Positions 14,322 to 64,000 of a stretch of DNA of 64,000 nucleotides are shown here, one piece after another. Source of the DNA: Urechidicola croceus (GTDB lineage: Bacteria > Bacteroidota > Bacteroidia > Flavobacteriales > Flavobacteriaceae); assembly GCA_905181865.1 (NCBI GenBank), contig CAJIZG010000003.1, positions 451,001-515,000 of the forward strand, read 5' to 3'. The position numbers and the translations under genes are program-made. Below the pieces are notes generated by a model, which ran no database searches, was not told the DNA's origin, and saw only the letters and a list, made by a program, of their open reading frames with translations. Positions within the stretch are counted from its first letter, which is position 1. Every line of letters starts with the position of its first letter.

Positions 14322-14450
14322 TGGTTTATAATTTTTAAGATTTAATTCGTAAGACTTTATTTTTAAATTCACCAGGTTTTATAATTCTGTTTAATCCTAT
14401 TATGGTGTTGTTTGTAACTATACTCAAATGTTTATTCGACGATTATTTCA
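14322..14450. repeat. Duplicated spacer (partner at 17085-17210)
   Basis: About 120 bp between the GH95 start and the upstream GH20 tail is almost identical to the DNA between the GH92 start (17084) and the intact GH20 gene, including ATTCGTAAGACTTTATTTTT and TATTATGGTGTTGTTTG. Together with the GH20 tail at 14432-14850 this marks a tandem duplication. Confidence 0.8.
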
Positions 14451-38305: not shown

Positions 38306-40309
38306 CTACGGGCGATGCGTTCGGAAAGAGCCGGCGGGCAGGCCTTCTTTATTTATGAGATTCGGCTCGGCTTCCTGGTCCCAGGCGAATCTTACTGCGC
38401 TCGGTTTGGCGATGGCGTCGCTGGAGACGAGAACGGTGTTGCCGTCGATCACGGCTTGGGCTTTGACGAATTTTCCGTCTTCACCCGCGATTTCAAACCA
38501 GTCGAGAGGCTTGGCGTCGCGCGAGGCGAGCCCGCTTCCTGTATGCTCGAAACTTAGGCGAATCTTGCTGCCTTCGATAGCCATCGATTTGTAGAGGGGG
38601 CCGGAGTAGACGAGGTTGTCCTGGCCATAGTCTTTCGCAAGAGCCCAGAGCGCGAGGCGCTTGCCAACGTCTTGTTTGTTTTTCGGATGGATGTCGGCGA
38701 TGTTGCCGATGTCTGAGATGACAGCCATGCCGGTGTGAGGAATATTGAGCGCGGCGGTCTGGGCCTCCCAGAGCCCGGGCAGAGCGAGTTCTTGGCCGCT
38801 GCCGTAGCGATAGGGCGCGATCTGCACAAAGTAGAAGGGAGCGTCGGGGCGAAGGAAGACGTTGCGCCAGGATTGGATGAGCGCCTGCATTTTGTCGAAG
38901 TAGCGCATGTCGTCGCCGTTGTTCGATTCGCCCTGGTACCAGGTGATGCCGCGGATGGCGAAAGGGACAAGGGGGTGAATCATCGTGTTGTAAAGAAGCG
39001 TGGGGAGGTTGACATAGTTGTTAGGATGAGGGAGCGAGGCGTGGAGTTGGACACCTGGCTTGTAGCGCCAGGGACCAGCCAGGCCGATGCGATCAGTTTC
39101 CTCGGAACCGGCGACACAGAGAGCCATGGCGTCGGGCTTGCCCACCAGGCCGCGGGAGCCAAACGTGTCGATGACACGTACGGTGATTGTGTTGGCGCCG
39201 GCTTTGACAAGGTTGGCAGGGATGCTGTAAACGCGCTGTTTGTAATATTGGCCGGGAGCGGTGGCGCCCACACGGTGGCCGTTTAACCACGTGACATCGG
39301 CTTCGTAGATGCGGTCAAGGTGCAGTACGAGGTTCTTGCCCACCCACGATTCCGGGACATCAATCGTCTTGTGGAACCAAACCATGCCCCTGAAGTCGGG
39401 CAGGCCCGCTTTTCCCCAATTGTTGGGGATCTGCATTGTTTTCCAACTGCGGAGGTCGCTGTCAGGATTCGTCATTTTGCGAGCGAGTTCGTCGTTGTCT
39501 TTCGCCTCGTTGAACGCCAACGACGAACTCGCGGCGCGTTCTGCGCTGGCTTTGTAAGCGAGTTTGAACGCCGGGTCGTGGTGAATATCTTGGGCTTCGG
39601 CGATGTGTTCGGTCATGCCGGGCAGCCGCGAGATTTCTTCGTGGCGCATCCAGGTTTCAATGATCGTTCCGCCCCACGAGGCGTTGATAAGTCCGACAGG
39701 CACTTCGATGGACTGGTGGATTTCGCGTCCGAAGTAGTACCCGACGGCCGAGAAGTCCCCGATGGTCTCGGGCGAACAGGCTTGCCACTGACCGACAACG
39801 TCGTCCTGGGGATCGCTGGCCATGGCGGTGGGGCGCGGAATGTTAAAAAGTCGGATGTTGGGGTGGTTGGCTGCTTTGATTTCGGCTTTGCCATCGGCTG
39901 AGTTGTTAACGGACATTTCCATGTTGGACTGGCCCGAGCACAGCCAGACCTCGCCCACAAGGATATCGGTGAGGCGAATTGTCTCCTCGCCAGCCTTAAC
40001 GGTCATCGTCAGCGGACCTTTGCCGCTTTCGAGGGGCGGCAGGGTGAGGCGCCAGCGCCCTTCTGCGTTCGCGCGGGTGCGAGCGGAGTGCGGACCAACC
40101 TCAACAGTGACAGTACGGCCGGGCGCGGCCCAGCCCCAAATAGGCAGGGGCTGGTCGCGCTGGAGAACCATGTGGTCGGTGAAGATGTTAGCCATTCGGA
40201 ATGTGGGCTGCAGCTCAGCAGCGTACAGGCGATGGCCTGCAGTGCCGCCAAGTAACAGAGCGGCCATCATTGTAGTTAGGATTGCTTTTCGTAATATGAT
40301 GTTTTTCAT
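38306..40309 (-). CDS. GC-rich SASA-family esterase, copy 4
   Basis: The 667-residue paralogue has the signal ILRKAILTTMMAALLLGG, Ser128 in GQSN, WYQGESNNGDD and DIHPKNKQDVGKRLA. In the middle part it resembles copy 1 (HASLPHPNNYVNLPTLLYN) rather than copy 3, but its N-terminal region matches copy 3, so the copies are mosaic. It follows the GH92 gene by 28 bp and probably forms a transcript with it and with copies 3 and 2. Multiple variants of one esterase suggest several acetylation patterns on the substrate, or simple amplification. Confidence 0.87.
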   Translation of the reverse strand: MKNIILRKAILTTMMAALLLGGTAGHRLYAAELQPTFRMANIFTDHMVLQRDQPLPIWGWAAPGRTVTVEVGPHSARTRANAEGRWRLTLPPLESGKGPLTMTVKAGEETIRLTDILVGEVWLCSGQSNMEMSVNNSADGKAEIKAANHPNIRLFNIPRPTAMASDPQDDVVGQWQACSPETIGDFSAVGYYFGREIHQSIEVPVGLINASWGGTIIETWMRHEEISRLPGMTEHIAEAQDIHHDPAFKLAYKASAERAASSSLAFNEAKDNDELARKMTNPDSDLRSWKTMQIPNNWGKAGLPDFRGMVWFHKTIDVPESWVGKNLVLHLDRIYEADVTWLNGHRVGATAPGQYYKQRVYSIPANLVKAGANTITVRVIDTFGSRGLVGKPDAMALCVAGSEETDRIGLAGPWRYKPGVQLHASLPHPNNYVNLPTLLYNTMIHPLVPFAIRGITWYQGESNNGDDMRYFDKMQALIQSWRNVFLRPDAPFYFVQIAPYRYGSGQELALPGLWEAQTAALNIPHTGMAVISDIGNIADIHPKNKQDVGKRLALWALAKDYGQDNLVYSGPLYKSMAIEGSKIRLSFEHTGSGLASRDAKPLDWFEIAGEDGKFVKAQAVIDGNTVLVSSDAIAKPSAVRFAWDQEAEPNLINKEGLPAGSFRTHRP

Positions 40310-44185: not shown

Positions 44186-45136
44186 TTATATTGTAAAGAC
44201 TTCCTTTTTTAATGCGCCCAATTCTTTATCGGCATTGAAGAGTAACGGAAAGCATTTGTTATCCAATACCTGTCCGTGTTCACCCATTGATGGAAAATCT
44301 TTTAATAAATCCATTCGTTCAAAATTGGCAATATTCGAAACTGTATTTGGTCCCATCGAATTTAGGACAACAGCTCTTCTTGATCTGTCTGAACTATTTG
44401 AATAAGACCCATGCATCATTTGAGGATGGTGAAATGAGGCATAACCTTTTGGCATTTCAATGGCTGTTTTTTTATCAAAATCTGCTAATTGTTCTTTTGT
44501 CAACACTTCACGAACAGCATACATATTACCTGTTAAACCCGTAATAGGCAAAAGGCCCCATTTGTGACTACGAGGCACATAATACAAACATCCGTTTTCC
44601 TTACTAGCATCATCAAGCCCAATCCAGCAAGTAAGGTGGTTCATAGGTTTGGTAAAGGTCCAGTAAGAATAATCTTGATGCCAAGCTACTACACCTCCAT
44701 GATTGGAAGGTTTACAAAACAATTGGTCATGAAACAACTTGAAGTCTCCTCCCATTAGTTGATAAGCCGCCATACGATAAGCAGGTGCCCAAAGAAGATC
44801 ATGAAATCCAGTCATAGAACGCCATCCGCCAATGGCATGGAAAAGCACTTTATTTGGGTCTTCGGATTCATTACTTTTATATTCATAGAACAATTTTTTA
44901 CGCTCTTCACTCATCTCGCTAAGGTTCGCTAATTCCTCATTTAAGACATCAACCTGTTCTTCGTTTAAAATTTTGATATTTGAAAGATATCCGTTTTCTT
45001 TATAAAATTTTATTTGTTCGGCTGTAAGCATGTACTGTTTCCATTCTTCAGGGCTTTGAGGTTGTTTAAATAATTTAGATATTGGATTGCCATAATCAGA
45101 CAAATCATTCGATTTTAAGTTCTTTGCTGTGTTCAT
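44186..45136 (-). CDS. Phytanoyl-CoA dioxygenase (PhyH)-type Fe(II)/2-oxoglutarate oxygenase
   Basis: The 316-residue protein lacks a signal and is probably cytoplasmic. The Fe(II) site is visible as His153-x-Asp155 (WHQDYSYW) and His242 (MHGSYSN), followed by Arg253/254 for 2-oxoglutarate. Between them, WIGLDDASKENGCLYYVPRSH is shared by the PhyH family (given here in two parts: WIGLDDASKENG and CLYYVPRSH). Such enzymes hydroxylate small organic molecules and can cause oxidative loss of a methyl group. The gene lies 6 bp from the esterase gene, with an alcohol dehydrogenase next, so it may act on an imported sugar or its O-methyl group. Substrate unknown. Confidence 0.85.
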   Translation of the reverse strand: MNTAKNLKSNDLSDYGNPISKLFKQPQSPEEWKQYMLTAEQIKFYKENGYLSNIKILNEEQVDVLNEELANLSEMSEERKKLFYEYKSNESEDPNKVLFHAIGGWRSMTGFHDLLWAPAYRMAAYQLMGGDFKLFHDQLFCKPSNHGGVVAWHQDYSYWTFTKPMNHLTCWIGLDDASKENGCLYYVPRSHKWGLLPITGLTGNMYAVREVLTKEQLADFDKKTAIEMPKGYASFHHPQMMHGSYSNSSDRSRRAVVLNSMGPNTVSNIANFERMDLLKDFPSMGEHGQVLDNKCFPLLFNADKELGALKKEVFTI

Positions 45137-45142
45137 AATATA

Positions 45143-45940
45143 TTATTGTTGATTAAAAAAAAGCAATGTTTTAAATATATGATTTTCCCAATATTCCCAG
45201 TTATGCCCTCCTGGAAACTCGTTATAAATATGTGGAATATTGTGTAAGTTTAGCTGCTCATGTAATTTTCTGCTTGCTTCAAGTAAATCATCTTCAAGAC
45301 CGCAATCAAATCTAAAAGGGGGTATTGTATCTCGATATGCTATCATCATTTCTATTACAGATTCTTCTTGACTATTTTCTTGTCGAAGTTGAGATATGTC
45401 TTCTTCGATGAACAACTTCATTTGATCTAAATGCGTGATGGATGACAAACCAGAAAATGCTTTGAACTTTTTATTGTATTTAGCACCAATCCTTAAAGCT
45501 CCAAAACCTCCCATAGACAAACCTGCAATAAATAAATCGGATTGGCTACTTACTTGCGGAATGGATTCTAAAACAGCATCTACTACATCTTCAACAATCC
45601 ATTTTTCAAAATTCGTGTCAGAATGTGGCACATAGCCGCTTCCATCACCCCATAATCCATCAGAAGGCATTACCAAAATCATTGGTTTTAGTTCTCCCGA
45701 AGCTATCCACTGGTTCATTTTTAGATGAATCCCCGCGGTGTATAGCCATGAATTGTGACTACCATAAACACCATGTAACAATATTGCTATAGGAAGATTG
45801 TTGTGGTTTTCTCCAGAAGGAATATACACAGAGATATCTCCTCTGCCTTTAAGGTGATTACTTTTGACTGTAATATGTCTTAAATTATCAGATTCGTATT
45901 TTGGGTTTGATATGTTTATTGTTTTAAATCGAGATACCAT
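45143..45940 (-). CDS. Alpha/beta-hydrolase of the esterase D type
   Basis: The 265-residue protein has no signal peptide. Esterase (PF00756-like) features are LPIAILLHGVYGSHNSW with the oxyanion region, GLSMGGFG with nucleophile Ser142, and a C-terminal FPGGHNWEYW holding the catalytic-type His. Esterase D members include S-formylglutathione hydrolases and sugar or feruloyl esterases. The start codon lies 3 bp from the end of the alcohol dehydrogenase gene, so translation may be coupled. With that dehydrogenase it could form a formaldehyde-oxidation pair, or act on an acyl sugar. Confidence 0.83.
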   Translation of the reverse strand: MVSRFKTINISNPKYESDNLRHITVKSNHLKGRGDISVYIPSGENHNNLPIAILLHGVYGSHNSWLYTAGIHLKMNQWIASGELKPMILVMPSDGLWGDGSGYVPHSDTNFEKWIVEDVVDAVLESIPQVSSQSDLFIAGLSMGGFGALRIGAKYNKKFKAFSGLSSITHLDQMKLFIEEDISQLRQENSQEESVIEMMIAYRDTIPPFRFDCGLEDDLLEASRKLHEQLNLHNIPHIYNEFPGGHNWEYWENHIFKTLLFFNQQ

Positions 45941-45943
45941 TGC

Positions 45944-47068
45944 TTAATCTTCAAAAATTATGACGCCTTTAGCATTTTTACCCGCTAACATATCTTCAAA
46001 TGCTTTTGGTAAATTTTCAAAAGGATATTGTTTAGTTACCATTTCATCCAATAGCAAATCTCCTTTTTTATAAAGATTTAATAAAATAGGGAAATCTATT
46101 TGTGGTCTACATTTTCCGTATAACGGATTGATATAAATTTTATCCCATTGAAAAAGATTCATATCAATAGTTATTTCATCTTCTATTCCGCTCACTTGCA
46201 CAGCTGTTCCTGCATTATGAATCATTGCCAACGGCGCAGCTCCCAAAGCTGGTATGGCTGTACATTCAAAAGCATATGTAGCGCCTCTGCCATTTGTTAA
46301 TTGCTTTACTTTTTCAGCAGCGTTTAATAAGTTTGTATCACTTTTTTCTGCTTTAATGGTATGGGTCGCTCCAAATTGAACGGCCATCTCTAATCGTTTG
46401 GGATTAATATCTATAGCAATAATTTTTTCTGCTCCTGAGATTCTAGCTCCCTGTATAACACTTAAACCTACCCCTCCGGTGCCCAATACAACAACGGATG
46501 ATCCAGCTTTAATTTGGGCTGTATTTACTGCCGACCCATAACCCGTCATAACTCCACAACCTAAAATAGCCGCAGAACCAAATGAGATATTTGTGTCATA
46601 CTTTACAACCGCTTGCTCTTTTACAACGGTATGTGTGGATAAGGTTCCAATGTTAAAAGATCGTTGAATACCTTTTCCTTGATATTTAGTGCTTTCTAAT
46701 GAGGCGTGTCCTTTAGAAATATCGCCACCACTAGTTTGACTCCCTGCTGTTACCGGAGAATTATTTTCGCAAATATGCTGATTCATTTGTTGACACTGAA
46801 AACAATTTCCACAGGGTATAGCCCAATTCAAAATCACTTTATCGCCAACTTTAACTGAAGTTACATCATCTCCAACTACCTCAACAATACCAGCCCCTTC
46901 ATGCCCCAATATTATAGATGTGTTCCAGTTTAAAGAATCGTAATCGGTATGGCAAATGCCGGCTGCTTTCATTTTAACCAACACTTCGTCTTTTTGTGGA
47001 AGAGATACATCAATAGTTTCTATTGTATATTCTCCTTTCCCATTTGTAATCGCTGCTTTTGCTTTCAT
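45944..47068 (-). CDS. Zinc-dependent alcohol dehydrogenase (class III-like MDR)
   Basis: The 374-residue protein has the catalytic zinc ligands Cys39 and His56-Glu57 (GHEGAGIVE). The structural zinc lobe has Cys86, Cys89, Cys92 and Cys100. The NAD-binding Rossmann fold is VVVLGTGGVGLSVIQGA, preceded by LGCGVMTGYGSAVNTA. The last block is typical of the class III / formaldehyde dehydrogenase-like branch. It oxidises an alcohol or a hydroxymethyl thiol adduct with NAD. It lies between the symporter and esterase genes in a run with gaps of 3-52 bp. The exact substrate is unknown. Confidence 0.87.
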   Translation of the reverse strand: MKAKAAITNGKGEYTIETIDVSLPQKDEVLVKMKAAGICHTDYDSLNWNTSIILGHEGAGIVEVVGDDVTSVKVGDKVILNWAIPCGNCFQCQQMNQHICENNSPVTAGSQTSGGDISKGHASLESTKYQGKGIQRSFNIGTLSTHTVVKEQAVVKYDTNISFGSAAILGCGVMTGYGSAVNTAQIKAGSSVVVLGTGGVGLSVIQGARISGAEKIIAIDINPKRLEMAVQFGATHTIKAEKSDTNLLNAAEKVKQLTNGRGATYAFECTAIPALGAAPLAMIHNAGTAVQVSGIEDEITIDMNLFQWDKIYINPLYGKCRPQIDFPILLNLYKKGDLLLDEMVTKQYPFENLPKAFEDMLAGKNAKGVIIFED

Positions 47069-48916: not shown

Positions 48917-50659
48917 TTATTCTTTATTTAGTGTTTTAATAGCTTCATATAAGTTCATATCAGCGTTTTGAAGTCTTTGTATGGCCTCTTCTTCATCTAT
49001 ATGGTATAATTTTTTAAGTATAACTTGTGCCCGCTCTACTAATTTCATATTAATGCAAGCCATATCTACCATATACGAACCTGCTACTTTCCCCAATTTA
49101 ATCATGACTGTAGATGAAAAGAAATTTAATACTTTTTTAGTAGCGGTTCCTGCTTTCATTCGTGTTGAACCAGCAACGACTTCGTTACCCGAATTTAAAG
49201 GAATTACAACATCGCAAAACGGTAATTCTTTTTTAGGTTGATTTACTTGTATCTGTATTGATAATGCCCCTCTACTTTTAGCAAATGCCAAAGCTGATTG
49301 CACATAATAAGCTGTACCGCTAGCAGAAATACCAATGACCACATCATTGGTATTTATATTTAACAATAGCATTTCTGGAACTGCACTGGCGTCTTCTTCA
49401 AAATCAGATTCAATTTCTATCGCGGCATCTGCAATTCCTCCCGACACCAAAGTAACAATCCTGTCCTCTGGAAAACCATAAGTACAAGGTATTTCAACAG
49501 TATCCATCGCTGCAATTCGTCCACTTGAGCCTGCCCCTACATAAATAATTCGACCACCAGATTTTAATTTATCCACTGTTCTATCTGCTATATCAGCAAT
49601 CATTTTCAGATTGTTTTTCAATGCGAATCCTGCTTCTTGTTCTGCTTTCCAAAGTGTTTGGATAATTTCGGCACTTTGCATCTTTTCGAGATGCAATTCT
49701 TTATTATAAGGTACTTCAGTTTCCATAGCACCATAGTTTATTGTTACTCTTTTTTGCGCAGCGATCGACTCTCCTTTTGCCAATGCCAATGCTCCTATTA
49801 ATTGCAATTGATTTCCTTCAGTTGCTATTTTAGCAATTACTGGTTTATCAAGTTCTGCTGGTGTATTTTCCAACAGCTTGTTTAATTGTTTACCCATTGG
49901 GAAATTACAGGAACTAATAGCATTTGCCAAACCGCCACAAATAATGACTTCATCCAAATTATACAGAATAGCCGCTGTATTGATAATACGGGCTAAATTT
50001 TTGATATATGCTTCTCGTTCAATTTTAAAATTAGGACTTGTGAAAATTTCTAAAAGACTATTGTTTTTATCAAGAATAGCTAATTTTGAAGCACTTGCAA
50101 CAGCATTATAATCTCCATTAGGCAACCTAATACTTCCCAACAAAGGCAAAGATTTTTTAGGCCGCCATCTTCTTCCGTTTCTCCAAACTGTAAAACCAAG
50201 CCCTGTACCAATAGGCATTATTCCAATAGTTTTATTTCCTTTTAAATAATTCAGTTCAGCCAATCCTATGGTAGCAGCATCGGCATCGTTAACAACAATG
50301 GCTTTGCATTGAAACTGTCTTTCCAATGTTTCTTTCCACTTTTCGTTTTTCAGAACATTTAAATGGGATGCTGTCTTTAAAACTTTAGAGCCGTGATAGT
50401 TGACAATACCTGCCGTAGAAATCCCAATACCTTTGATGTTTTTATTGTTTATTTTAAGATTTTCTATTACTTTCAGAATCAGTATTATGAATTCATTAAT
50501 GGTGGTGTCTTTATGTAAAGAACTTTTCACTTTGGCATAGTTATTCTCTATCTCATTCAAATTATTTTCTTTACTAAAAATAATATCGGATTTACTCCAA
50601 CAAGCCTTTATCCATGTACCTCCTATGTCAATTGCTAAAAAGTAATTTGTTTTTTCCAT
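48917..50659 (-). CDS. Fusion of ROK-type sugar kinase and MurQ-type etherase
   Basis: About 580 residues from ATG 50659; three further in-frame ATGs lie upstream, but this start puts LAIDIGGTWIKA at its usual place. Residues about 1-280 are a ROK kinase (NDADAATIGLAE, GIMPIGTGLGF). Residues about 300-580 are a SIS-domain N-acetylmuramic acid 6-phosphate etherase: GAGSSGRIAAMDTVEIP with the acid/base-type Glu, EIESDFEEDASA, GISASGTAYYV and GSTRMKAGTATK. Together they could phosphorylate an imported sugar and cut its lactyl ether to give a GlcNAc 6-phosphate-type product and lactate. Setting it beside a sodium symporter rather than peptidoglycan genes is unusual, so another 3-ether sugar is possible. 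Confidence 0.85.
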   Translation of the reverse strand: MEKTNYFLAIDIGGTWIKACWSKSDIIFSKENNLNEIENNYAKVKSSLHKDTTINEFIILILKVIENLKINNKNIKGIGISTAGIVNYHGSKVLKTASHLNVLKNEKWKETLERQFQCKAIVVNDADAATIGLAELNYLKGNKTIGIMPIGTGLGFTVWRNGRRWRPKKSLPLLGSIRLPNGDYNAVASASKLAILDKNNSLLEIFTSPNFKIEREAYIKNLARIINTAAILYNLDEVIICGGLANAISSCNFPMGKQLNKLLENTPAELDKPVIAKIATEGNQLQLIGALALAKGESIAAQKRVTINYGAMETEVPYNKELHLEKMQSAEIIQTLWKAEQEAGFALKNNLKMIADIADRTVDKLKSGGRIIYVGAGSSGRIAAMDTVEIPCTYGFPEDRIVTLVSGGIADAAIEIESDFEEDASAVPEMLLLNINTNDVVIGISASGTAYYVQSALAFAKSRGALSIQIQVNQPKKELPFCDVVIPLNSGNEVVAGSTRMKAGTATKKVLNFFSSTVMIKLGKVAGSYMVDMACINMKLVERAQVILKKLYHIDEEEAIQRLQNADMNLYEAIKTLNKE

Positions 50660-50739
50660 TATTGTATGCATCGATATCATTTCAAAATTGTGTAACAATT
50701 TTAGTTGAATTCTATTTTAATTAAATATGTTTTCTTCTC

Positions 50740-53509: not shown

Positions 53510-53959
53510 TTACTCCTCATTTTTTTTATTAGCCAGCAAAATGTGATCACAAACCATGACTATTTCATTTTTTTGGTTAAAAACTTCTACATGCTCAGTA
53601 ACCTGTCCAAAGCGAGGCTTTTTAGATTCTTTCTTTTCACTTATCACAATTGTTACACGTATAGTATCACCAATATAAACAGGTTTAATAAAACGTAATC
53701 TATCATAACCTTTCGAAAAAGCTTCAGGATTAATCTCAGTAGCAGTCATCCCAATTGCTACACTAAAAGTAAGCGTACCATGGGCTATCCGTTGTTTAAA
53801 AGGCTGATTCTTACACCATTCTGCATCCATATGATGAGGAAAAAAATCACCAGTTTGACCAGCATGTGTTACAATATCAGCCTCTGTAATAGTACGTCCA
53901 AAAGTTTCTCTTTGCTCTCCTGTAACGTAATCTTCAAAAAATTGAGTTCTAAAAATCAT
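53510..53959 (-). CDS. MaoC-like (R)-hydratase, copy 1
   Basis: The 149-residue single hot-dog protein has the hydratase-2 motif: [15 protein letters not shown], with Asp38 and His43 at the catalytic spacing, and [15 protein letters not shown]. Such enzymes add or remove water at an acyl-CoA double bond. It is the last gene of the run that begins with the RhaT-like permease and lies 19 bp from the Gfo/Idh gene. Its likely substrate is the CoA ester made by the class III CoA-transferases of the run. The paralogue at 57425 lacks the His. Confidence 0.85.
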
Positions 53960-53978
53960 AATTCTATATTTTAAAATA

Positions 53979-55040
53979 TTATTTTCTTGTTCCTGTATTA
54001 CTCGATTGGTAGGCTAACTCAACCGTTTCCATAGTTTTTACAGCATCTTCAACAGCGGTTGGCAACTCTTTTTCTGAACCTTCTACAAATCTCATTAAAC
54101 TCGACATCACACCAATAAAAGCATCAGGAAACCAAGTTCCTTCTATTTCCAAAGTTTTCCATTGAGGGTTATTATCTTCGTCTATAACGCAATATTCAAA
54201 TTTATCTGGAACACCATGTGGATAATCAAGTAATAATCCCATTTTGGCAACAATAACACCTTTAGTTCCTTCCCATTTTATAAAGCTTTTTTGATGGGTT
54301 CTCCCAAAATTATGATCGTGATTGGTATTAATTGTAGCACTCATTTCATCACCATAATCAAATAAAATAGTACTTCGTGTAGAGGCTACAGTAGTCTTTG
54401 GATGTCTCACTGTTTTAGCCATAACTCTTTTTGGGTCCCCTAAGAAAGAGCGCATAACATCAATATAATGAATGCTATGATACAATATTTCGACCCTTGG
54501 AATATCCGCTAAAAAATCCCACAAATGCCATGGGGTATAGGTGCAAAGTTTTACTTTCATGTCGTAGACTTCTCCTATTAAACCTGCATCTATTAGAGAT
54601 CTTGCCGCGTTTACGAATGGTGCAAATCTTAATTGAAAATTAACCGCTGCTGTTAGATTTTTAGCATTACAAATAGACAAAATTTCCTTTGCACTTTCCA
54701 GATTTTCTCCCATAGGTTTCTGTATTAAAACAGCACTATTATCAGGTAATTTTGGAAGTATATTTGTTATTTCAGAAGCAGGAATTGCCAAGTCAAAAAT
54801 AGCATTGTTTTCTTTTCCCAATTTAACGAGAGATTCTATGGTATCGCAAACAGTTGGAATACTGAATTGCGCAGCTAAAAGCATTGCATTTTCTTTGTTT
54901 AAATCATAAATAGCTAGAACTTCAAAACCTGCTTTAGTATATGCCGGTAAGTGAGCATCTTTTACAATTCCACCAGCCCCAATAATTACAATTGGAATTT
55001 TTGTATTTGGTAATTTAGACTCAGAAATTATTGTTGTCAT
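53979..55040 (-). CDS. Gfo/Idh/MocA-family oxidoreductase, cytoplasmic
   Basis: The 353-residue protein has no signal peptide. The Rossmann start is [18 protein letters not shown] (17-34), with catalytic-type Lys108 in IQKP, then a C-terminal domain with [20 protein letters not shown], the metal-free dehydrogenase type. It overlaps the stop of the solute-binding-like gene by one base at 55040, so translation is probably coupled. It would oxidise or reduce a sugar or sugar acid with NAD(P). Its substrate may be the ligand of the neighbouring binding protein. Confidence 0.88.
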
Positions 55041-56272
55041 TAACTTTCTATTTTATCAATTTTATTTTGTGCTTCTTTTATTAATTCCGATACATCCTTA
55101 TTGGTAGAGAACAGCTTTGTTACCATTACATCAATAACTTCAGATATTTTATTCCAATTTATATTTCGGGGTAAGGTTCTAGCATTTTTATGAAGTGTCT
55201 CGAGTTTATAGTAATAAGGAACTATTTCATTCACTTCTTTATCTCCCCATGTGGACTTTCTACAGCCAATACCCCCTTCTAAGGTCATAAGTTTGTCATT
55301 TTTTGCATTGACGGCATATTGAATAAAATCATACGCTACTTGCTTATTCTTACTTCCTTTACCAATAGCGTATAACCAATAAACATTAAGGGAAACCCCA
55401 TGTCCTCCTGGGCCTGCTGGCACATCGGTAATATCTACACAGCCTTTTACTTTAGACTCGGGGTATACTTCACACATGGATGCAAATCCAAACCAGTTCA
55501 CCATCATAGCAATCTCTCCATTCGCAAAGGCCATTCCTGATTTTACAGAATCAAAATCCGCACAATCGGGATGCATCGCTGCCTTATCTTGGGTCAATTT
55601 ACGGTAAAACTCAAGTCCTGCTACTGCTGCCGGACTATCTATATTGATTTGTCCATTTTCATTTACCAATTCACCACCTCTTGTCCATAATTGAAGACTA
55701 AAATCAAATACGGTATTGTGTCCATCGGGATACAAGGCAAATGCGGTACCATATAAGTTTTGCTCAGGTCTATGAAAAAATTGAGCTACTTCATGCAATT
55801 CTTCCCAAGTGGCAGGTGGTTGCAATTCTCTATTGTATTTTAGTTTAAAAGCCTTCTTTTCTTCGGGATTATTGAAGAGGTCTTTTCTATAAACAAGGCA
55901 TTCTGGACCATCATGAAACGGTAGCCCTAGAATTTTGTCTTCAAATTTTTGCATGTTCAATAATGAATCGGACCAACTTTCAGAATAATTCTCAGAGTGC
56001 TGGGCATCGATCCATGGAGCAAGATCTTCCAATGCATTTTTTTCATTTGCTTCTGTAATCCAATCTGTATTTATATGAGTTACATCCCAATCTCCAGTAA
56101 CCAATCCATTTTCTTTTCCTAAAGTTGCTTCATATAAGGGGTGTAAATCCATTGGTATGGCTTCCAGTTCCAAATCACATCCTGTTTCCTGGCAAAAGAA
56201 TTTCCATATTTTTTCGATAGCCGTTTCAAACGGGTCAAATTTACGTACGGCAATTCTAAATTTATTCGACAT
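55040..56272 (-). CDS. Solute-binding-protein-like protein without a signal peptide, copy 1
   Basis: The 410 residues have the fold pattern of family 1 (sugar) solute-binding proteins: DWDVTHINTDWITEANEKN, ILGLPFHDGPECLVYRKDLF, PATWEELHEVAQFF and GMAFANGEIAMMVNWFGFAS. There is no signal sequence: the first beta strand (FRIAVRKFDP) starts at residue 5, and the preceding gene stops only 4 bp upstream, so none can be hidden. No ABC permease or ATPase is in the window. It should therefore sit in the cytoplasm, perhaps as a sugar sensor, carrier or enzyme subunit. It is closely packed with a CoA-transferase and an oxidoreductase. Confidence 0.8.
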   Translation of the reverse strand: MSNKFRIAVRKFDPFETAIEKIWKFFCQETGCDLELEAIPMDLHPLYEATLGKENGLVTGDWDVTHINTDWITEANEKNALEDLAPWIDAQHSENYSESWSDSLLNMQKFEDKILGLPFHDGPECLVYRKDLFNNPEEKKAFKLKYNRELQPPATWEELHEVAQFFHRPEQNLYGTAFALYPDGHNTVFDFSLQLWTRGGELVNENGQINIDSPAAVAGLEFYRKLTQDKAAMHPDCADFDSVKSGMAFANGEIAMMVNWFGFASMCEVYPESKVKGCVDITDVPAGPGGHGVSLNVYWLYAIGKGSKNKQVAYDFIQYAVNAKNDKLMTLEGGIGCRKSTWGDKEVNEIVPYYYKLETLHKNARTLPRNINWNKISEVIDVMVTKLFSTNKDVSELIKEAQNKIDKIES

Positions 56273-56276
56273 CGTT

Positions 56277-57422
56277 TTATAGTTTATATTCTTTTATTAA
56301 TGAATCCGTATGTTCTCCCAAAATAGGGGTTCCTTTTTCAGAAACCAATAATTCTCCATCTATCTGAATAGGACAACGGGTTGTTTTAAAACGGAAGCCA
56401 TCGCTCATTTGAACTTCCTGTTCCATTTCCAATACTTTATAGCCTTCGGTGTTGAGTAAGGTTTTCCAATCTAGCACATCTGCACACCAAATATCAACAG
56501 GTTCTAATATTGACAACCATTTTTGAGTAGTCCCCGTAGCCAAATGGTTCGCCAACACTTCTTTGATTTCATCCCTTTTATCGAACCATGACGGTATTTC
56601 TTGGTATTCTTTTAATTTTTCGCAACCCAACAATTCGCCCAAAACAGGAATTTGACCCATGGCCAAAGCAAGAGAACCATTTTTTGTTTTATAAATTCCG
56701 TAGGGTGCTCCAAGGTAGGCATGTGCATTATTTCTTTCGGTACGTTCGGTAGGTTGACCTCCATCTTTAAAGAACGTAGTAATGGTTTCAAATTGAAAAT
56801 CAATGATAGATTCCATCATGCTTACCTCAATTTTAGCTCCTTTTCCATTCACTCCTTTACGTACCAAAGCTGCCAATAACCCTTGTACTAGATGTGCTCC
56901 AGACAAGATATCAACAATTGCCAACCCTACTGGAACAGGACCATCGTTTTTATTGCCACTTAGCCAAGTTAAGCCAGACAGGGATTGAATTAAAAGATCC
57001 TGCCCAGGTTTGTCTTTCCAAGGCCCTTCTTTTCCATAACCCGATATTTCTCCATATACAATGGACGGATTAATCTTAGCAATCGTGTTATAATCTAATC
57101 CAAGTCGCTCTATTACTCCTGGTCTAAAATTATGCATCACAATATCTGCCGATTCAATTAATTTTAACACTTGAGCTTTATCTACCTCATTTTTAAGATC
57201 GGCACTAAAACTTTCTTTATTACGGTTTATTGCATGAAAAACAGTAGAGTCTCCATTCATTTTCACATTGGACACATAAAGTGTACGACATATATCTCCT
57301 GTTATAAGACGTTCTACTTTTATTACGCGAGCCCCCAAATCGGCCAATTTTAAACTGGCTGATGGTCCGGATAAAAATTGACTTAAGTCAACTACTAATA
57401 TATCTTCAAGTGGTTTTATCAT
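56277..57422 (-). CDS. Class III (CaiB/BaiF) CoA-transferase, copy 1
   Basis: The 381-residue protein has the family start [20 protein letters not shown] (9-28), [12 protein letters not shown], and [13 protein letters not shown] with the catalytic Asp142 that forms an acyl anhydride in this class. The end reads [20 protein letters not shown]. It moves CoA from one acyl-CoA to a carboxylic acid. Its partner carboxylate is unknown. It is 2 bp downstream of the second MaoC-like gene. It is about half identical by eye to the copy at 57940, so the two may act as a pair or on different acids. Confidence 0.88.
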
Positions 57423-57424
57423 TT

Positions 57425-57928
57425 TTATTTTTGATAATTTTCTGGATGTCTGTATTTAACCGTTTGTAAATGCTCACAGTAAAGAACTAATTCTCCCGGG
57501 TGTTTATAAACCTCATAACTCACTGTTACAAGTCCCATTTTTTCGTATTTAGGTATCTTTTTTAATTGTGTTCTTACCGTATAAATAGTATCTCCAATAA
57601 ACACGGGTTTAATAAACCTCAGTTTGTCATAACCATAACTAAACGTATGAATATTGTTATGAGCCATCAACCCTAATCCTAAACTAAAAACCATGGCACC
57701 AGCCACCAATCGTTTTTTAAACAATCCTTCTTCTTCGGCAAATACCTCATCGGCAACATAAGGATGTAAATCCATAACCAAACCATTAAACATCATAGAC
57801 TCACCTTCGGATATGGTTCTTCTGATTGATCTTGCTTTAAGACCAACTTTAAACTCTTCATACAACCAATCTTCTGTATTAAACTGCTTAATATTTTTAT
57901 GTGTTTCTACAGGTGTATTTTCTGGCAT
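57425..57928 (-). CDS. MaoC-like protein, copy 2, lacking the catalytic His
   Basis: The 167-residue hot-dog protein has the MaoC layout: [35 protein letters not shown] and [19 protein letters not shown]. Aligned to copy 1 ([10 protein letters not shown]), Asp53 matches the catalytic Asp, but the position of His43 is Val58; only His55 lies near. A typical (R)-hydratase reaction may thus be lost or changed. It sits between the two CoA-transferase genes (2 and 11 bp gaps). It may form a mixed dimer with copy 1, or work as a thioesterase- or hydratase-like enzyme with another residue. Start chosen for the N-terminal fit. Confidence 0.8.
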
Positions 57929-57939
57929 AATAATATAAT

Positions 57940-59082
57940 TTATAAGTTAAATTCTTTTGCTATTTTCAGTGTGTCCTCTCCTACTTTAGGTGCTGCTTTT
58001 CGATGGTAATAAAGTTCTCCATCTACTCGGATAGGGCAACGTGTAGTGCGTACTTTTTCTCCATCTGAAGTGCTGACTTCTTGTTCCATTTGAAGTACTT
58101 TATAGCCATCATGTGCTAAAAAATCTTCATAAGTAAATACATCTGAACACCATATATCTTTTGATTCTAAAATCAACAACCACTCTGCAGTTGTCTTTGT
58201 GATAAAAATATCATGTAATAAATCCATTATTTCATCGCGCTTATCAAACCAGCTTTCCTCAGATTGAAATACTGGAGGCAATTCACTGCCCAACTCTTTC
58301 ATTAGTTGAGTCATTGGCATCATGGCAATAGAAATATAATTATTCTTTGTTCTATAGACTCCGTAGGGTGCACTTAAATATGCATGTGCACTCCCTTTTT
58401 TAGCACGCTGTGGTTCTTTTTTTCCATCGTTGAAATGGGTGGTCAGTACTTCAAACTGAAAATCCAAGGTCGATTCTAATAAGCTTACTTCAACCAAAGC
58501 TCCTTTTTGTGTTTTTCCTCTTCGTACCAATGCCGCCAATATCCCTTGAGTAAAATGGGTTCCGGTTAGAATATCACTGGCAGCCAACCCTATAGGTACT
58601 GGACCGCTATCTGCTGACCCCGATAAATGGGTCATTCCAGAAAGAGACTGTATCAACAAATCCTGTCCCGGTTTTTTTACCCAAGGTCCTTTACTACCAT
58701 ACCCTGTTACTACTCCATATACAATTTTAGGGTTGATGCTTTTTACAGTTCCATAATCCAATCCTATTTTCTCCATGACCCCTGGCCTAAAATTATGGGT
58801 CATGACATCCGCTAGGGATAATAATTTTTTAATTTGTTTTAAATCTTCTGGGTCTTTCAAATTAGCTGCAAACGATTCTTTGTTTCTATTTATGGTATGA
58901 AAAACCAAACTATCTTTGTCTATAAACAAATTTTTAATCGCAATTTGCCTACAACCCTCTCCTGTTACCGGGCGTTCTATTTTAATAACTCTAGCCCCTA
59001 AATCTGCTAACCGAAGTCCTGCAGAAGGCCCTGCCAAATATTGACAAAATTCTAAAATCAATAAACCTTCTAGTGGTTTCAT
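57940..59082 (-). CDS. Class III (CaiB/BaiF) CoA-transferase, copy 2
   Basis: The 380-residue protein is homologous to the one at 56277 along its whole length: [46 protein letters not shown] with catalytic Asp141, and [20 protein letters not shown]. It lies between the binding-protein-like gene (11 bp) and MaoC copy 2 (11 bp). Strong conservation of both copies suggests that each is used, either on different carboxylates or as donor and acceptor forms. No gene for further beta-oxidation steps is in the window. Confidence 0.88.
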
Positions 59083-59093
59083 TAACTATTTAT

Positions 59094-60233
59094 TTAATGT
59101 GTTAGTGATTCAATATAAATCGAATTCATTTTATCTACCGCTGCTTCAATAGAAATTTTTCCAGTAACAGCATCGTGAATTACAGGACTTGCCTCATCCT
59201 GAAAATGCATATACCCATAATACTGAGGGCGCATTGTTGCTTCATCCAACGTTTGTAAAGTATCTTTAAAAAAGTTCTTACTTTGCTTATTCACCTCTTC
59301 ATTTAACCATGCTTTTCTATGTCCTGGCTGACCTCCAAAATCAAAATAAAAACCTGATTGTATTTTTTCTGAAGCGGTGAACTCCGCATACTTCATGGCT
59401 ATTTCAGCATGCTTGGTTTTAGAAGATACCGCCACTCCTGCGCCTCCTAATGTAGAACGCAATCTTTGACCATTGAACGTTACTAAACCTCCTGCTTTTA
59501 AAACGTTATCTGCATAATTATTTTTAGAATAATTGGAATATCCATAATTGAATGGACTATACACAATATCATCCGTTTTTGTCATTAATTCAGCTATCTG
59601 TATTGGATTCATTTCTAAACAATATGAAGGAGCTACAGCTACAAGTTCTTTATACATTTTTATTGCTTCTATCATAATAGCACGAGGAGCTACTTCTATT
59701 TTACTTTTAAAAACAGCACCACCCAATGCTATACACATCATATAATGGTGCATTAAAGTGTCTATTGGTATCGATGCAAAAGCTACTTTTCCTGCTTTAG
59801 TTAGTTCCAACAATTCTTCCCAAGTTTTAGGAATTTGAATATTCTGTTGGTTTGCTAAATCTTCTCTCCAAGTAGCAATGGGTGTAGCTGCGTCTGTTGC
59901 TAATGTCCATTGTTTGTTGTCTACATTATAACTAGCATGCGATTCCCCTACACTATTATTGGCTAATTCTTCAATAAATTCAGCACTTAAATAATCATCA
60001 AAAGCTAAAAGATTATTATCTCGTGCAGCTATTGAAACATGTGGATTGTCCATAATTAACAAATCGTAGTTATCTGTCAATTCATCTATCGACGCATCTG
60101 CAAATGCTTGTAATGACCTTTTTTCCCAAGTAATTCTCACATTTGGATTTAATTCTTCAAATCGCTGTGCAGTGGCAACTACAGACGTAAAGCCACGTGT
60201 ATGATTCCAAGAAATTCCTTTTAATTTAATCAT
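59094..60233 (-). CDS. Solute-binding-protein-like protein without a signal peptide, copy 2
   Basis: The 379 residues have the family 1 solute-binding pattern: SVVATAQRFEELNPNVRITW, YDLLIMDNPHVSIAARD, PKTWEELLELTKAGKVAF, LGGAGVAVSSKTKHAEIAMK and AEFTASEKIQSGFYFDFGGQ. The first beta strand starts at residue 2 (IKLKGISW), and the permease gene stops 23 bp upstream, leaving no room for a signal peptide. It is only weakly similar to copy 1 at 55040. It is the second gene of the run, after RhaT. The lack of an exported form or an ABC partner points to a cytoplasmic role. Confidence 0.8.
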   Translation of the reverse strand: MIKLKGISWNHTRGFTSVVATAQRFEELNPNVRITWEKRSLQAFADASIDELTDNYDLLIMDNPHVSIAARDNNLLAFDDYLSAEFIEELANNSVGESHASYNVDNKQWTLATDAATPIATWREDLANQQNIQIPKTWEELLELTKAGKVAFASIPIDTLMHHYMMCIALGGAVFKSKIEVAPRAIMIEAIKMYKELVAVAPSYCLEMNPIQIAELMTKTDDIVYSPFNYGYSNYSKNNYADNVLKAGGLVTFNGQRLRSTLGGAGVAVSSKTKHAEIAMKYAEFTASEKIQSGFYFDFGGQPGHRKAWLNEEVNKQSKNFFKDTLQTLDEATMRPQYYGYMHFQDEASPVIHDAVTGKISIEAAVDKMNSIYIESLTH

Positions 60234-60256
60234 TTCCCTTATAATTTAATTTTTTT

Positions 60257-61327
60257 CTAATGGTCAGGTATTGTTTCGACCCCCAACATTCCACCGTATG
60301 TTATCACCACAAATGATATTACTAATATCAACAAACCTGATATTAAAACAATATAGGTTTGCTTCGATACATTTTTCCATTCTTTCATTAATACACCTAC
60401 GATATAACTAAAGAAAATAAGCATAGACATATGAATTGCCCAACTTGCAAATTTAAAATTCCCCATGCGTACATGTGCCATTCCGTAGAAGAAAAATTGA
60501 AAATACCATAGGCCACCTGTGAGTATTGATAGCCCTAAATTTTGCAACCATACCGAAGCACCAACACTTTTTACAGCCACCAATTCACGAATGGTTTTTT
60601 GCTTAAAGCTCACTACCATAAACCAAATAAAATTGGTTACGAATGTTCCAGATGTGGATACTAATAGATTTGCGTTTCCCTGAAAATGACCTGCTCCATA
60701 TTCACCAGCAATCTCTGCAATTGGGGCACCTAGTTCTAACGAAACTCCAAATATCGCAGATAAAACTCCGGCAAAAACCGCAAGCATTAATCCTTTCTTT
60801 AAATTAAAACTGGCTGCTGTAGAATTATCTAATAGTTTTAGATCTTTCTCTTTTTTTCTACCTGCAACCCCGCACAACACAACTCCAAATAACGACAATA
60901 ACAATCCAACAAGCACAACCATGCCTCCAGGTTTGGAAAAATGTTCTATTAATGTTCCATGAATAAATAGTGGCACTATGGTACCTAATACCGCTGATAA
61001 CCCAATTGAAATAGTATAGGTTAATGAAAAACCGATATACTTAATAGCATACCCAAATGCTAATCCTCCAAAACCATACACTGCTCCTAATAATGACGCG
61101 TTGATGATTGCGGAACTTGGTGATTCTATGATTACTTGCCAAAGATTAGGCACTGTAAAATATCCTACAACAATTGGAAAAATTAGCCAAGCAAATAATG
61201 CTTGAATAAGCCAATAACTATTCCATGACCATTTTTTAACTTTTTGGAAAGGTAAATAACAAGAAGCGGCAGAAACACCTCCAATAGCATGAATAGCTGT
61301 TCCTAATAAACTGTTTGATGCAATCAT
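60257..61327 (-). CDS. RhaT-like sugar:proton symporter
   Basis: The 356-residue membrane protein has about ten hydrophobic segments. RhaT family features are TAIHAIGGVSAASCYLPFQK, WLIQALFAWLIFPIVVGYF, LGAVYGFGGLAFGYAIKYIG and KKGLMLAVFAGVLSAIFGVS. RhaT of E. coli imports L-rhamnose with protons; this protein may carry rhamnose or a related deoxy sugar, in keeping with GH78 and GH106 in the same locus. It is the first gene of the run 61327-53510. No rhamnose isomerase or kinase is in the window, so its cargo may instead enter the CoA-transferase pathway. Confidence 0.85.
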   Translation of the reverse strand: MIASNSLLGTAIHAIGGVSAASCYLPFQKVKKWSWNSYWLIQALFAWLIFPIVVGYFTVPNLWQVIIESPSSAIINASLLGAVYGFGGLAFGYAIKYIGFSLTYTISIGLSAVLGTIVPLFIHGTLIEHFSKPGGMVVLVGLLLSLFGVVLCGVAGRKKEKDLKLLDNSTAASFNLKKGLMLAVFAGVLSAIFGVSLELGAPIAEIAGEYGAGHFQGNANLLVSTSGTFVTNFIWFMVVSFKQKTIRELVAVKSVGASVWLQNLGLSILTGGLWYFQFFFYGMAHVRMGNFKFASWAIHMSMLIFFSYIVGVLMKEWKNVSKQTYIVLISGLLILVISFVVITYGGMLGVETIPDH

Positions 61328-62621: not shown

Positions 62622-63120
62622 TTAATTCAGGCTACTACCAAAACTATAACTTCCCGATTCCACTCTGTACACACTGGCACCATCTTCATTTTTAATAAAA
62701 GTAATTCCAACCGCATCTTCAATAGGTAAACCACTTTCTGTAATGTTATTTCCCTGAATATATACAGTTGCCGTACTGTTTACCGGAATGCTTACTTCCC
62801 AGTTCAATTGATTCGCCTCAGTTTTCCAGTTGCTGACAATGTTACCGTAATGCGATTTGTAGTTGCAGTTCACCCAATTGACACTTTTAACCGGTGCCGG
62901 GTGGAGGATGATATTTTTGAAACCAGGATAAGCAGTATCCCATTGGATTCCACCTAAACCACGGTAAAACCAGCCACCAATATACAGAAAGCAGGAGTGT
63001 ATCTGCGAAGCATGTCCGTTCCATTGTTCCCAACAAGTTGTTGCTCCGTTTTCTACCATATACCCCCAACCCGGGAAGGTTTTTTTGTTCACCACAGAGC
63101 CTTTCATCTGGTTATATTTT
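62622..63120 (-). pseudogene. GH78 alpha-L-rhamnosidase, C-terminal fragment
   Basis: About 165 residues begin YNEKYNQMKGS and hold TFPGWGYMVENGATTCWEQW, GGWFYRGLGGIQWD and PGFKNIILHPAP, the end of a GH78 barrel and the following beta domain. The N-terminal three quarters, with most catalytic residues, is missing. The fragment begins inside the last codons of the DUF5703 gene, in another frame (overlap 63104-63107 with its first Met). It is a deletion product that joined two genes. Confidence 0.8.
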
Positions 63121-64000
63121 TCATTATAACTACATCTTTACTTCGTGACTTAGGAGTAACCTTAAGACCTTCGATTTTCCCATTTTTGAAATGCCCTTCG
63201 ACAACCGTATTTTTAGAAGCATGAAATTTAAAATCGACATCCCACTCTTTTGGCCATGCAGGACAAAGCAATATTTTATCGCCTGCCTCCTGAATAATCA
63301 TATTCTGAAGAGCCCTAACATTTACTGAACCATGGCACTGATCAGGTATCCAATCGTAATTAGGTCCCCAAATAGCAGGGAACCGGCTTCCTTTGTGCTT
63401 ACTCTTAAAACCATTGACAACCATTTTTTTCGCCTCTTCTGTTTTTCCCACCAATGCTGCCTGGATGGCATCTTGCTGCCAGCCAAAGGCTTCTTTAAAT
63501 TTCCGGCTATCATACGTTTTTTGCGCCATTTCAAGGTTCTCTTTTCCTAAACCATAAAGAGGGTATGGAAAAATTGCATATAGTTCTGGATTTTCGAAAT
63601 TGGATGTTCCAGGGTTATATTCCTGAGCAGGCGAAATTAATTCGTTTCCATTTTCATCAGTCCTTAACGGTATTTCTGGCAGGGCTGAGTTTATTTTTTT
63701 AGAAAGGTCAAAAAGCTGATTATCGCTTAACTTTATTTTGTCATTCAAAAAACGATTCGTTATTATTTTTAACCCAGCAATTTCGGGCAAGGGATTGAGG
63801 ACATCACTAAAAAAGGTTTCAAGAGAATGAGCAGGTGAAAAAACAATTTCACCACTGTTGTTTTTTTGATAATGCTCATCATAAAAGGTCAGAATTTCTT
63901 TTGCAAAAACAGTTAAATATTCTTCCAGAAATTTTTCATCATTTGTAAACAAATAATATTCCTGCATCATTGAAACCAGTTCCAAACCGCTTTGCCAATA
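63104..64000 (-). CDS. DUF5703-family glycoside hydrolase-like protein, C-terminal part (runs off the right edge)
   Basis: The frame is open to the right edge (YWQSGLELVSMM), giving about 298 residues. It matches the C-terminal 40 percent of the protein at 5615: SGLE then MM, HSLETFFSDVLNPLPEIAGL, a RALQNMIIQE block in place of GSTALQRMLIQE, CPAWPKEWDVDFKFHASKNT and LKVTPKSRSKDV. The usual last residues (EFGEGW and on) are replaced by VIMKNITR, caused by the fused GH78 fragment. The loss is small, so the enzyme may still work. The start, signal and first 500 residues lie outside the window. Confidence 0.8.
   Translation of the reverse strand, partial: YWQSGLELVSMMQEYYLFTNDEKFLEEYLTVFAKEILTFYDEHYQKNNSGEIVFSPAHSLETFFSDVLNPLPEIAGLKIITNRFLNDKIKLSDNQLFDLSKKINSALPEIPLRTDENGNELISPAQEYNPGTSNFENPELYAIFPYPLYGLGKENLEMAQKTYDSRKFKEAFGWQQDAIQAALVGKTEEAKKMVVNGFKSKHKGSRFPAIWGPNYDWIPDQCHGSVNVRALQNMIIQEAGDKILLCPAWPKEWDVDFKFHASKNTVVEGHFKNGKIEGLKVTPKSRSKDVVIMKNITR

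Follow-up and report, generated by a model that had tools for sequence, protein, structure and literature searches.

A run of eight tightly packed genes on the minus strand (61327 to 53510) of a 64,000-nucleotide stretch of Urechidicola croceus DNA (assembly GCA_905181865.1, contig CAJIZG010000003.1, positions 451,001 to 515,000; here called the window) is a conserved module that combines a sugar symporter, two class III coenzyme A (CoA)-transferases, two MaoC family proteins, a Gfo/Idh/MocA oxidoreductase, and two solute-binding proteins (SBPs) that lack an export signal. Relatives of the run lie inside fucose-degradation clusters of bacteria and one archaeon, suggesting an undescribed intracellular breakdown of fucose-like sugars. 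The run had been singled out in an earlier sequence-only reading, whose placement and family assignments are all confirmed. What goes beyond that reading is the connection to fucose, the relatives in Alphaproteobacteria and an archaeon, a fusion of an SBP with Gfo/Idh, the replacement of a MaoC protein by a crotonase, and the loss of a catalytic His from the other MaoC protein.

A conserved run with leaderless binding proteins

Read from RhaT to MaoCb, the run encodes a RhaT-like sugar/H+ symporter of 356 residues, the probable importer (60257 to 61327; PF06379, 191 bits); SBPa, a MalE-like binding protein of 379 residues (59094 to 60233; PF01547, SBP_bac_1, 45 bits) related by sequence to PDB 1eu8; the CoA-transferase CaiBa (57940 to 59082; PF02515, CoA_transf_3, 321 bits); MaoCa (57425 to 57928; PF01575, 46.6 bits); a second CoA-transferase, CaiBb (56277 to 57422; PF02515, 311 bits); SBPb, a sugar-SBP-like protein of 410 residues (55040 to 56272; PF01547, 92 bits) related by sequence to PDB 6dtq and SmoF; the Gfo/Idh/MocA oxidoreductase of 353 residues (53979 to 55040; PF01408, PF22725, and PF02894 over their cut-offs), which overlaps SBPb by one base; and MaoCb, a MaoC hydratase/dehydratase (53510 to 53959; PF01575, 88.9 bits). 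When the window proteins were compared with Pfam, all eight open reading frames (ORFs) passed the cut-offs. None of the eight proteins reached an NCBIfam cut-off; the best RhaT model gave 311.6 bits against a cut-off of 468. The spacing had been given as -1 to 24 bp, of which the tight packing stands and the upper figure does not, since the gaps from RhaT to MaoCb are 23, 11, 11, 2, 4, -1, and 19 bases. CaiBa and CaiBb are 55% identical and the two MaoC proteins 36% identical, and SBPa and SBPb, with about 20% identity over 229 aligned positions, are therefore not recent duplicates of each other. CaiBa and CaiBb are the only CoA_transf_3 matches in the whole genome. SBP_bac_1 has four matches there, two of them outside the window near BPD_transp_1 permeases. 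The latter family has six matches genome-wide and none in the window, in line with the earlier statement that the run contains no ATP-binding cassette (ABC) permease.

With an SBPa relative taken as a match with an E value of 1e-20 or less, relatives were found in 22 of the 249 genomes sampled from the family and in 19 of the 345 genomes of an overlapping phylum sample; the one same-genus genome sampled had none. Sixteen of the 22 family genomes are of the module type (45 to 100% identity), and six hold only a 33 to 34%-identical relative in another setting. A relative is also present in 145 plasmid records, 90 of them from Sinorhizobium. Loci with an SBPa score of 300 bits or more were classed as module-type, which gave 38 loci (designated by L numbers): the window itself, two Bacteroidota plasmids, and 35 further loci on genomes or contigs, L006 among them. 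These loci were chosen because they hold SBPa and are hence not independent of it, eight come from one genus, and the gene-order counts, which were made by script, depend on the E-value limits and on stretches of 10 to 20 kb (64 kb for the window).

A neighborhood search had been proposed as a check in the sequence-only reading, and it found a CaiB gene no more than 100 bp from SBPa in 37 of the 38 loci, the window included. Both CaiB genes are present in 35 loci and RhaT or FucP in 34, a count to which L060 contributes an 81-residue piece of RhaT and L067 a weak match of 84 bits. The complete order SBPa-CaiBa-CaiBb-SBPb-Gfo/Idh-MaoCb occurs in 22 loci, including the window, with other genes interposed in some, and partial orders occur in more. 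Because the complete order recurs in 21 other loci, the arrangement reflects more than chance. In 26 of 29 loci, no more than 400 bp separate SBPb from Gfo/Idh, and the other three are a contig end (L005) and two of the 21 nonwindow loci with the complete order, in which SBPb and Gfo/Idh are joined in one frame (L003, 760 residues; L061, 759 residues). Both fusions occur in an operon type with an iron-type alcohol dehydrogenase (Fe-ADH), PdxA, and DUF1537, like L004 and L058, where SBPb and Gfo/Idh are separate; given this shared operon type, they probably derive from one fusion event.

Some loci differ in content. In L003, L004, L005, L058, and L061, a DHDPS-type aldolase, the Fe-ADH, a PdxA-type dehydrogenase, and a DUF1537-like kinase are located ahead of SBPa; a fucose route does not account for the kinase and PdxA. 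In L006, a contig of 6.7 kb from a Lentisphaerales bin, an SBPa of 76 to 77% identity is accompanied by RhaT, Gfo/Idh, MaoCb, and CaiB, which reflects either horizontal transfer or a binning error.

SBPa (N terminus, MIKLKGISWNH) and SBPb (MSNKFRIAVRK) begin without a leader and, as had been claimed, have no room for one, because only 4 and 7 open codons, respectively, precede their starts. Leaders were assessed by the hydropathy maximum over residues 1 to 40, which is not a SignalP score, and ORF starts were set at the first ATG, GTG, or TTG after a stop codon, so that no longer ordinary start was skipped. Some script-called starts are too far upstream (among them those in L071, L082, L086, L089, L103, L104, L106, L107, L108, and L110), and the values for these say little about leaders; annotated starts for L098 to L105, L107, and L109 to L111 put the N terminus at or near the start of the match. 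Among 58 SBPa-type ORFs, 52 had maxima below 1, and the top value, 1.68, belongs to a start called too far upstream. For 30 of 36 SBPb-type ORFs the maximum was at most 1.25, and the six ORFs at 1.99 or more are conventional SBPs that head neighboring ABC operons (L100, L103, L104, L106, L109, and L111; L106 is unannotated, and its SBP was called conventional by homology). A leader-like N terminus was found in none of the SBPa or SBPb relatives and in all six SBPs of the neighboring ABC operons. The opposite pattern, homologues with signal peptides beside ABC permeases, was not seen; a partial exception is L107 (Croceibacterium), where SBPb lies directly behind an ABC permease gene, although that ABC operon has its own SBP.

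Like the CUT1-type sugar SBPs MalE and SmoF, the window SBPs belong to SBP_bac_1 (45 and 92 bits; cut-off, 26) and have PDB relatives by sequence. However, they lack a signal peptide and a cognate permease in the window and are tied to enzymes. As judged from their N termini, SBPa and SBPb are almost certainly cytosolic; relatives carry an "extracellular" annotation despite the absent leader. SBPa has a conserved WxHxRG motif near its N terminus, and residues W9, H11, R13, G14, R39, D62, R123, and R335 are kept at 95% or more across 55 aligned sequences; several of the conserved arginines would suit an anionic ligand. An AlphaFold model of SBPa based on five close sequences had a predicted local distance difference test (pLDDT) score of 46, too low for the model to be of use in judging whether the protein has the two-lobed SBP fold with a bound sugar.

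CoA-transferases and hydratases

CaiBa and CaiBb are assigned to the class III (CaiB/BaiF) CoA-transferases by PF02515 scores over the cut-off and by an Asp, which we take to be the catalytic residue of this class, present in all 81 aligned CaiBa and CaiBb sequences. In CaiBa this is Asp170, which aligns with the Asp of formyl-CoA transferase. No NCBIfam equivalog with a named substrate was over its cut-off for either protein, the best reaching 198 of 750 bits. Pairing of a class III CoA-transferase with a hydratase is also seen in the carnitine system CaiB/CaiD, in which CoA is swapped from product to substrate. However, that system acts on a trimethylamino acid, uses the crotonase CaiD, and has no SBPs, and the L-carnitine CoA-transferase model, with a cut-off of 413, gives CaiBa only 79 bits and CaiBb 88. 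Benzylsuccinate CoA-transferase BbsEF comprises two different class III subunits, and PDB 9fn0 matches both CaiBa and CaiBb by sequence, whereas the substrate of BbsEF is aromatic.

The sequence-only reading noted that MaoC proteins act on acyl-CoA double bonds, an activity whose residues are kept in MaoCb but not all in MaoCa. The MaoC catalytic motif is an Asp and a His five residues apart; MaoCb has both (Asp38 and His43), and they are kept in 35 of 35 aligned sequences. MaoCa has a Val where the catalytic His is expected (Val58 in the window protein; 4 of 4 aligned sequences), is absent from most relatives of the run, being found beyond the window only in L094, L100, and L111, and is likely a noncatalytic partner. 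The closest solved relative of MaoCb is the MaoC-like protein PDB 4ffu of Sinorhizobium meliloti (185 bits), for which we know of a structure only and no function; its sequence is encoded on pSymB of S. meliloti 1021 between genes for a Gfo/Idh protein and a short-chain dehydrogenase/reductase (SDR).

Among the 38 loci, 28 have MaoCb, three have a crotonase instead, and in seven neither was seen. The crotonase stands beside the same CaiB pair (544 to 594 bits to the CaiB proteins of the window) in L062, L066, and L067, which also hold a long aldehyde-dehydrogenase-like protein (the crotonase was checked with Pfam in L062 and L067 and the L062 aldehyde dehydrogenase with NCBIfam). Eight loci with a more distant SBPa (L074 to L081; Pfam on L080) contain a crotonase in six cases, a seven-bladed lactonase and a UxuA-like protein in all eight, and CaiB in four; crotonase, CaiB, and lactonase occur together in L076 to L078 and L080. 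Since the hydratase fold is swapped while the CoA-transferase is kept, a CoA ester would be hydrated or dehydrated, and the swap points to CoA-thioester chemistry.

Fucose-pathway genes and fuconate dehydratases

Relatives of the module sit in clusters for the oxidative L-fucose pathway (fucose dehydrogenase FucDH, lactonase, fuconate dehydratase FucD, 2-keto-3-deoxyfuconate [KDF] dehydrogenase, and FAA hydrolase), to which the module adds CoA-transferases, MaoC, Gfo/Idh, and leaderless SBPs. In the eight loci of one genus (L072, L083, L084, L086, L087, L088, L093, and L095), genes for fuconolactonase, L-fucose dehydrogenase, and a zinc-type alcohol dehydrogenase are divergent from the module, whose last gene encodes FucP, and FAA hydrolase is present in seven of the eight. 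FucP (365 bits; cut-off, 280) and L-fucose dehydrogenase (355 bits; cut-off, 300) of L084 exceed the NCBIfam cut-offs, while its fuconolactonase (268 bits; cut-off, 400) and 2,4-didehydro-3-deoxy-L-rhamnonate hydrolase (377 bits; cut-off, 500) fall below them. In L094, the module, a mutarotase, a lactonase-like protein (140 bits), FAA hydrolase (423 bits), and SDRs form one run, with a weak fucose-dehydrogenase match of one SDR (72 bits).

Leaderless SBPa and CaiB also occur together in six alphaproteobacterial plasmid loci (L100, L103, L104, L105, L109, and L111), along with IclR, an ABC operon with its own SBP, an MR/MLE protein, mutarotase, Gfo/Idh, MaoC, and SDR. FucD and the module stand together in five alphaproteobacterial loci. 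The haloarchaeon Halostagnicola has SBPb, CaiB, MaoC, Gfo/Idh, mutarotase, an amidohydrolase, an AMP-binding ligase, and an annotated alpha-L-fucosidase together; a lactonase-like amidohydrolase is found in most of the seven loci made up of the six alphaproteobacterial ones and this one, in which mutarotase is also present. GH29-like fucosidases are encoded in the stretches of L099 (Persicobacter), L063, L065, L068, L085, and L090 (Pfam on L065). Of the 16 module genomes, 15 have fuconolactonase, compared with 65 of the 233 other genomes of the same sample (one-sided Fisher P = 1.8e-7), an association that could be partly due to shared lifestyle. It is likely that the module serves 6-deoxy-sugar catabolism.

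The absence of a full-length FucD relative from 27 of 30 module genomes was considered as a decisive hole in the pathway, and this argument was weakened by UxaA-type dehydratases inside the fucose clusters of several module genomes, that of the window among them. Full-length FucD is present in three of the 30 genomes (G001, G162, and G390), 13 have short, weak enolase-family matches, and 14 have none. A single IlvD was found in 25 of these genomes (G440 has a second), FAA hydrolase in 22, and a fuconolactonase-like protein and at least one UxaA in 29 each. The UxaA copy examined adjoins a tagaturonate-reductase-like gene in G127, G440, G578, G159, G100, G245, G061, G272, G460, G506, and G325, which by eye is a galacturonate-type operon; UxaB/UxaC and the UxaA of fucose clusters were also first recognized by eye, and this review of UxaA contexts left out G378. 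A usual fuconate dehydratase was not seen in G127, G578, G325, G506, G245, G159, and G100, UxuA not having been searched genome-wide; these seven have no full-length FucD, one IlvD, and one full-length UxaA, in a galacturonate-type operon. In the other module genomes, FucD, UxaA, or a second IlvD could handle the dehydration. Across the family, FucD was found at an E value of 1e-90 or less in 29 of 249 genomes. No SBP or CaiB genes lie beside FucD in 20 Bacteroidota FucD stretches, a set that takes in two 41%-identity relatives (L157 and L158) and two stretches from G162; 16 of the 20 have FAA hydrolase, and a weak MaoC match occurs in L157 and a Gfo/Idh protein (430 bits) in L158.

A putative CoA-ester route and its alternatives

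At the level of sequence, the protein families, the leaderless SBPs, the conserved order, the catalytic residues, one SBPb-Gfo/Idh fusion, and the fucose context of relatives are established. We tentatively propose a cytosolic module that breaks down a 6-deoxy sugar of the fucose type or a derivative of it, with a CoA-ester route, CoA-recycling dehydration, and SBPs as soluble partners. RhaT would import the sugar, and oxidation and lactone opening, by Gfo/Idh or by enzymes encoded elsewhere, would yield an aldonic acid, to which the CaiBa/CaiBb pair would transfer CoA. MaoCb, with MaoCa as its likely noncatalytic partner, would dehydrate the 2,3-dihydroxyacyl-CoA, and the 2-keto-3-deoxy acyl-CoA would pass its CoA to the next acid, as in the carnitine system. 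SBPa would partner the CoA-transferase and SBPb the dehydrogenase, both as soluble cytosolic substrate binders. The cytoplasmic sugar/CoA pathway of the sequence-only reading gains from the predicted location of the SBPs and from the fucose context beside the CoA enzymes, while its sugar-acid substrate and the role it gave to the SBPs stay conditional. A CoA ester of a sugar-derived acid is probable. The pairing of SBPa with CaiB and of SBPb with Gfo/Idh, together with the fusion, favors the SBPs being enzyme partners. The chance that dehydration is the CoA-ester step falls slightly short of even. We know of no sugar catabolism via CoA esters of a sugar acid. None of six compound names tried gave a match in the open-access literature searched, and no description of such a module was found in open-access full-text literature, as judged from listings, subscription papers lying outside them.

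Several observations weigh against this proposal. The window contains no lactonase, FAA hydrolase, fucose dehydrogenase, FucP, GH29, or mutarotase, and the examined stretches of 17 of the 38 module loci, the window included, hold no fucose-pathway marker. On contig C2 of the window genome, FucP-, fucose-dehydrogenase-, lactonase-, FAA-hydrolase-, SDR-, and UxaA-type genes and a mutarotase stand together, apart from the module on contig C3. FucD is present in five alphaproteobacterial clusters and UxaA in L105, so plain L-fuconate dehydration is not missing there. FucD and the module show no anticorrelation, FucD being present in 2 of 16 module genomes and in 27 of 233 others (P = 1). The stretches of L005 (a contig end), L060, L065, L068, L069, L070, and L090 hold no hydratase. 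SBPa occurs without CaiB in the rhamnose-type cluster of L090, and its distant relatives include one without CaiB in L108 (Microvirga), one in L101 (Jannaschia) whose CaiB lies at a distance of 4.5 kb on the opposite strand, and four of the eight in L074 to L081, which have no adjoining CaiB.

Because ordinary dehydratases coexist with the module in the window genome and in Alphaproteobacteria, the substrate of the CoA steps may be a fucose fragment or a modified fucose, such as an O-methyl or otherwise substituted 6-deoxy sugar acid from which the substituent and not water is eliminated, with FucD or UxaA taking plain L-fuconate. In PMC3454389, the CUT2 proteins SMc02774 and SMc02324 are reported to be the SBPs of S. 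meliloti for L-fucose and L-rhamnose, respectively, with a putative fucose dehydrogenase next to the SMc02774 system. The pSymB cluster is hence a different system, and the location of SMc02774 apart from it fits a modified substrate. So do a PhyH oxygenase, a putative esterase, and a class III/NDMA-like alcohol dehydrogenase encoded in a row at 44186 to 47068, starting four genes downstream of the run; relatives of the esterase and the alcohol dehydrogenase adjoin the module in L062 and L066, and an esterase relative does so in L070. These genes possibly serve oxidative demethylation and formaldehyde handling, which would fit the removal of a methyl group. However, the seven module genomes that seem to lack a usual fuconate dehydratase fit plain fuconate as the substrate there, and we consider this reading rather unlikely.

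A purely regulatory role, in which the leaderless SBPs would sense sugars in the cytosol and control the operon or its enzymes with no catalytic part, is improbable: SBP folds do bind sugars and an IclR-type regulator is encoded in 13 of the 38 module-locus stretches, but SBPb is fused to a dehydrogenase in two loci, SBPa is tied to CaiB, and Pfam detects no DNA-binding domain in either. It is more doubtful still that the CoA-transferase and hydratase work further down the pathway, on a product such as lactate or an acid derived from lactaldehyde. An AldA-like aldehyde dehydrogenase by the crotonase of L062 (490.9 bits, just below the cut-off of 500) and a lactaldehyde-reductase-like Fe-ADH in L004 (238 bits; cut-off, 523) would suit such a role, which leaves the binding proteins unexplained. 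Moreover, aerobic lactate use requires just a dehydrogenase, and the known substrates of MaoC proteins are 3-hydroxyacyl and not 2-hydroxyacyl compounds. Decay of ordinary ABC-transporter SBPs after loss of leader and transporter is hardly credible, even in a genome with so few BPD_transp_1 permease matches, as the SBPs are intact, conserved, and leaderless, and keep their partner genes, in several families, in a second phylum, and in an archaeon.

The window also encodes carbohydrate-active enzymes of the GH95, GH78, and GH106 types. One GH95-type gene is split into two ORFs (11972 to 13138 and 13182 to 14372), each matching part of the catalytic domain when scanned with Pfam as pieces, and is either broken or affected by a sequencing error. 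Near the module or within it, DUF5703 and/or GH95-like enzymes are found repeatedly (5615 to 8005 and 63104 to 64000 in the window; 11771 to 14083 in L059, between CaiBa and CaiBb; 9375 to 11567 in L102), a hint at the source glycan. Four large genes appear closely similar by eye (1373 to 3454, 33978 to 36047, 36230 to 38233, and 38306 to 40309), three of them in tandem; the first matches a SASA carbohydrate esterase in Pfam, and the set reads as a recent amplification. Genes at 8182 to 10509 (GH20 type by Pfam) and 17194 to 19518, about 7 kb apart, are likewise very similar by eye, and the ORF at 48917 to 50698 joins a ROK kinase domain to a MurQ/GKRP-like SIS domain.

In its widest form, and at this strength a speculative one, the proposed CoA-ester route would mean that in two domains of life fucose-type acids are processed via aldonyl-CoA, with metal-dependent dehydratases replaced and SBPs acting as cytosolic delivery subunits for a CoA-transferase and a dehydrogenase. 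If true, the module would add a new dehydration chemistry for deoxy sugars, which algae and plants commonly contain, and would give solute-binding proteins a new role.

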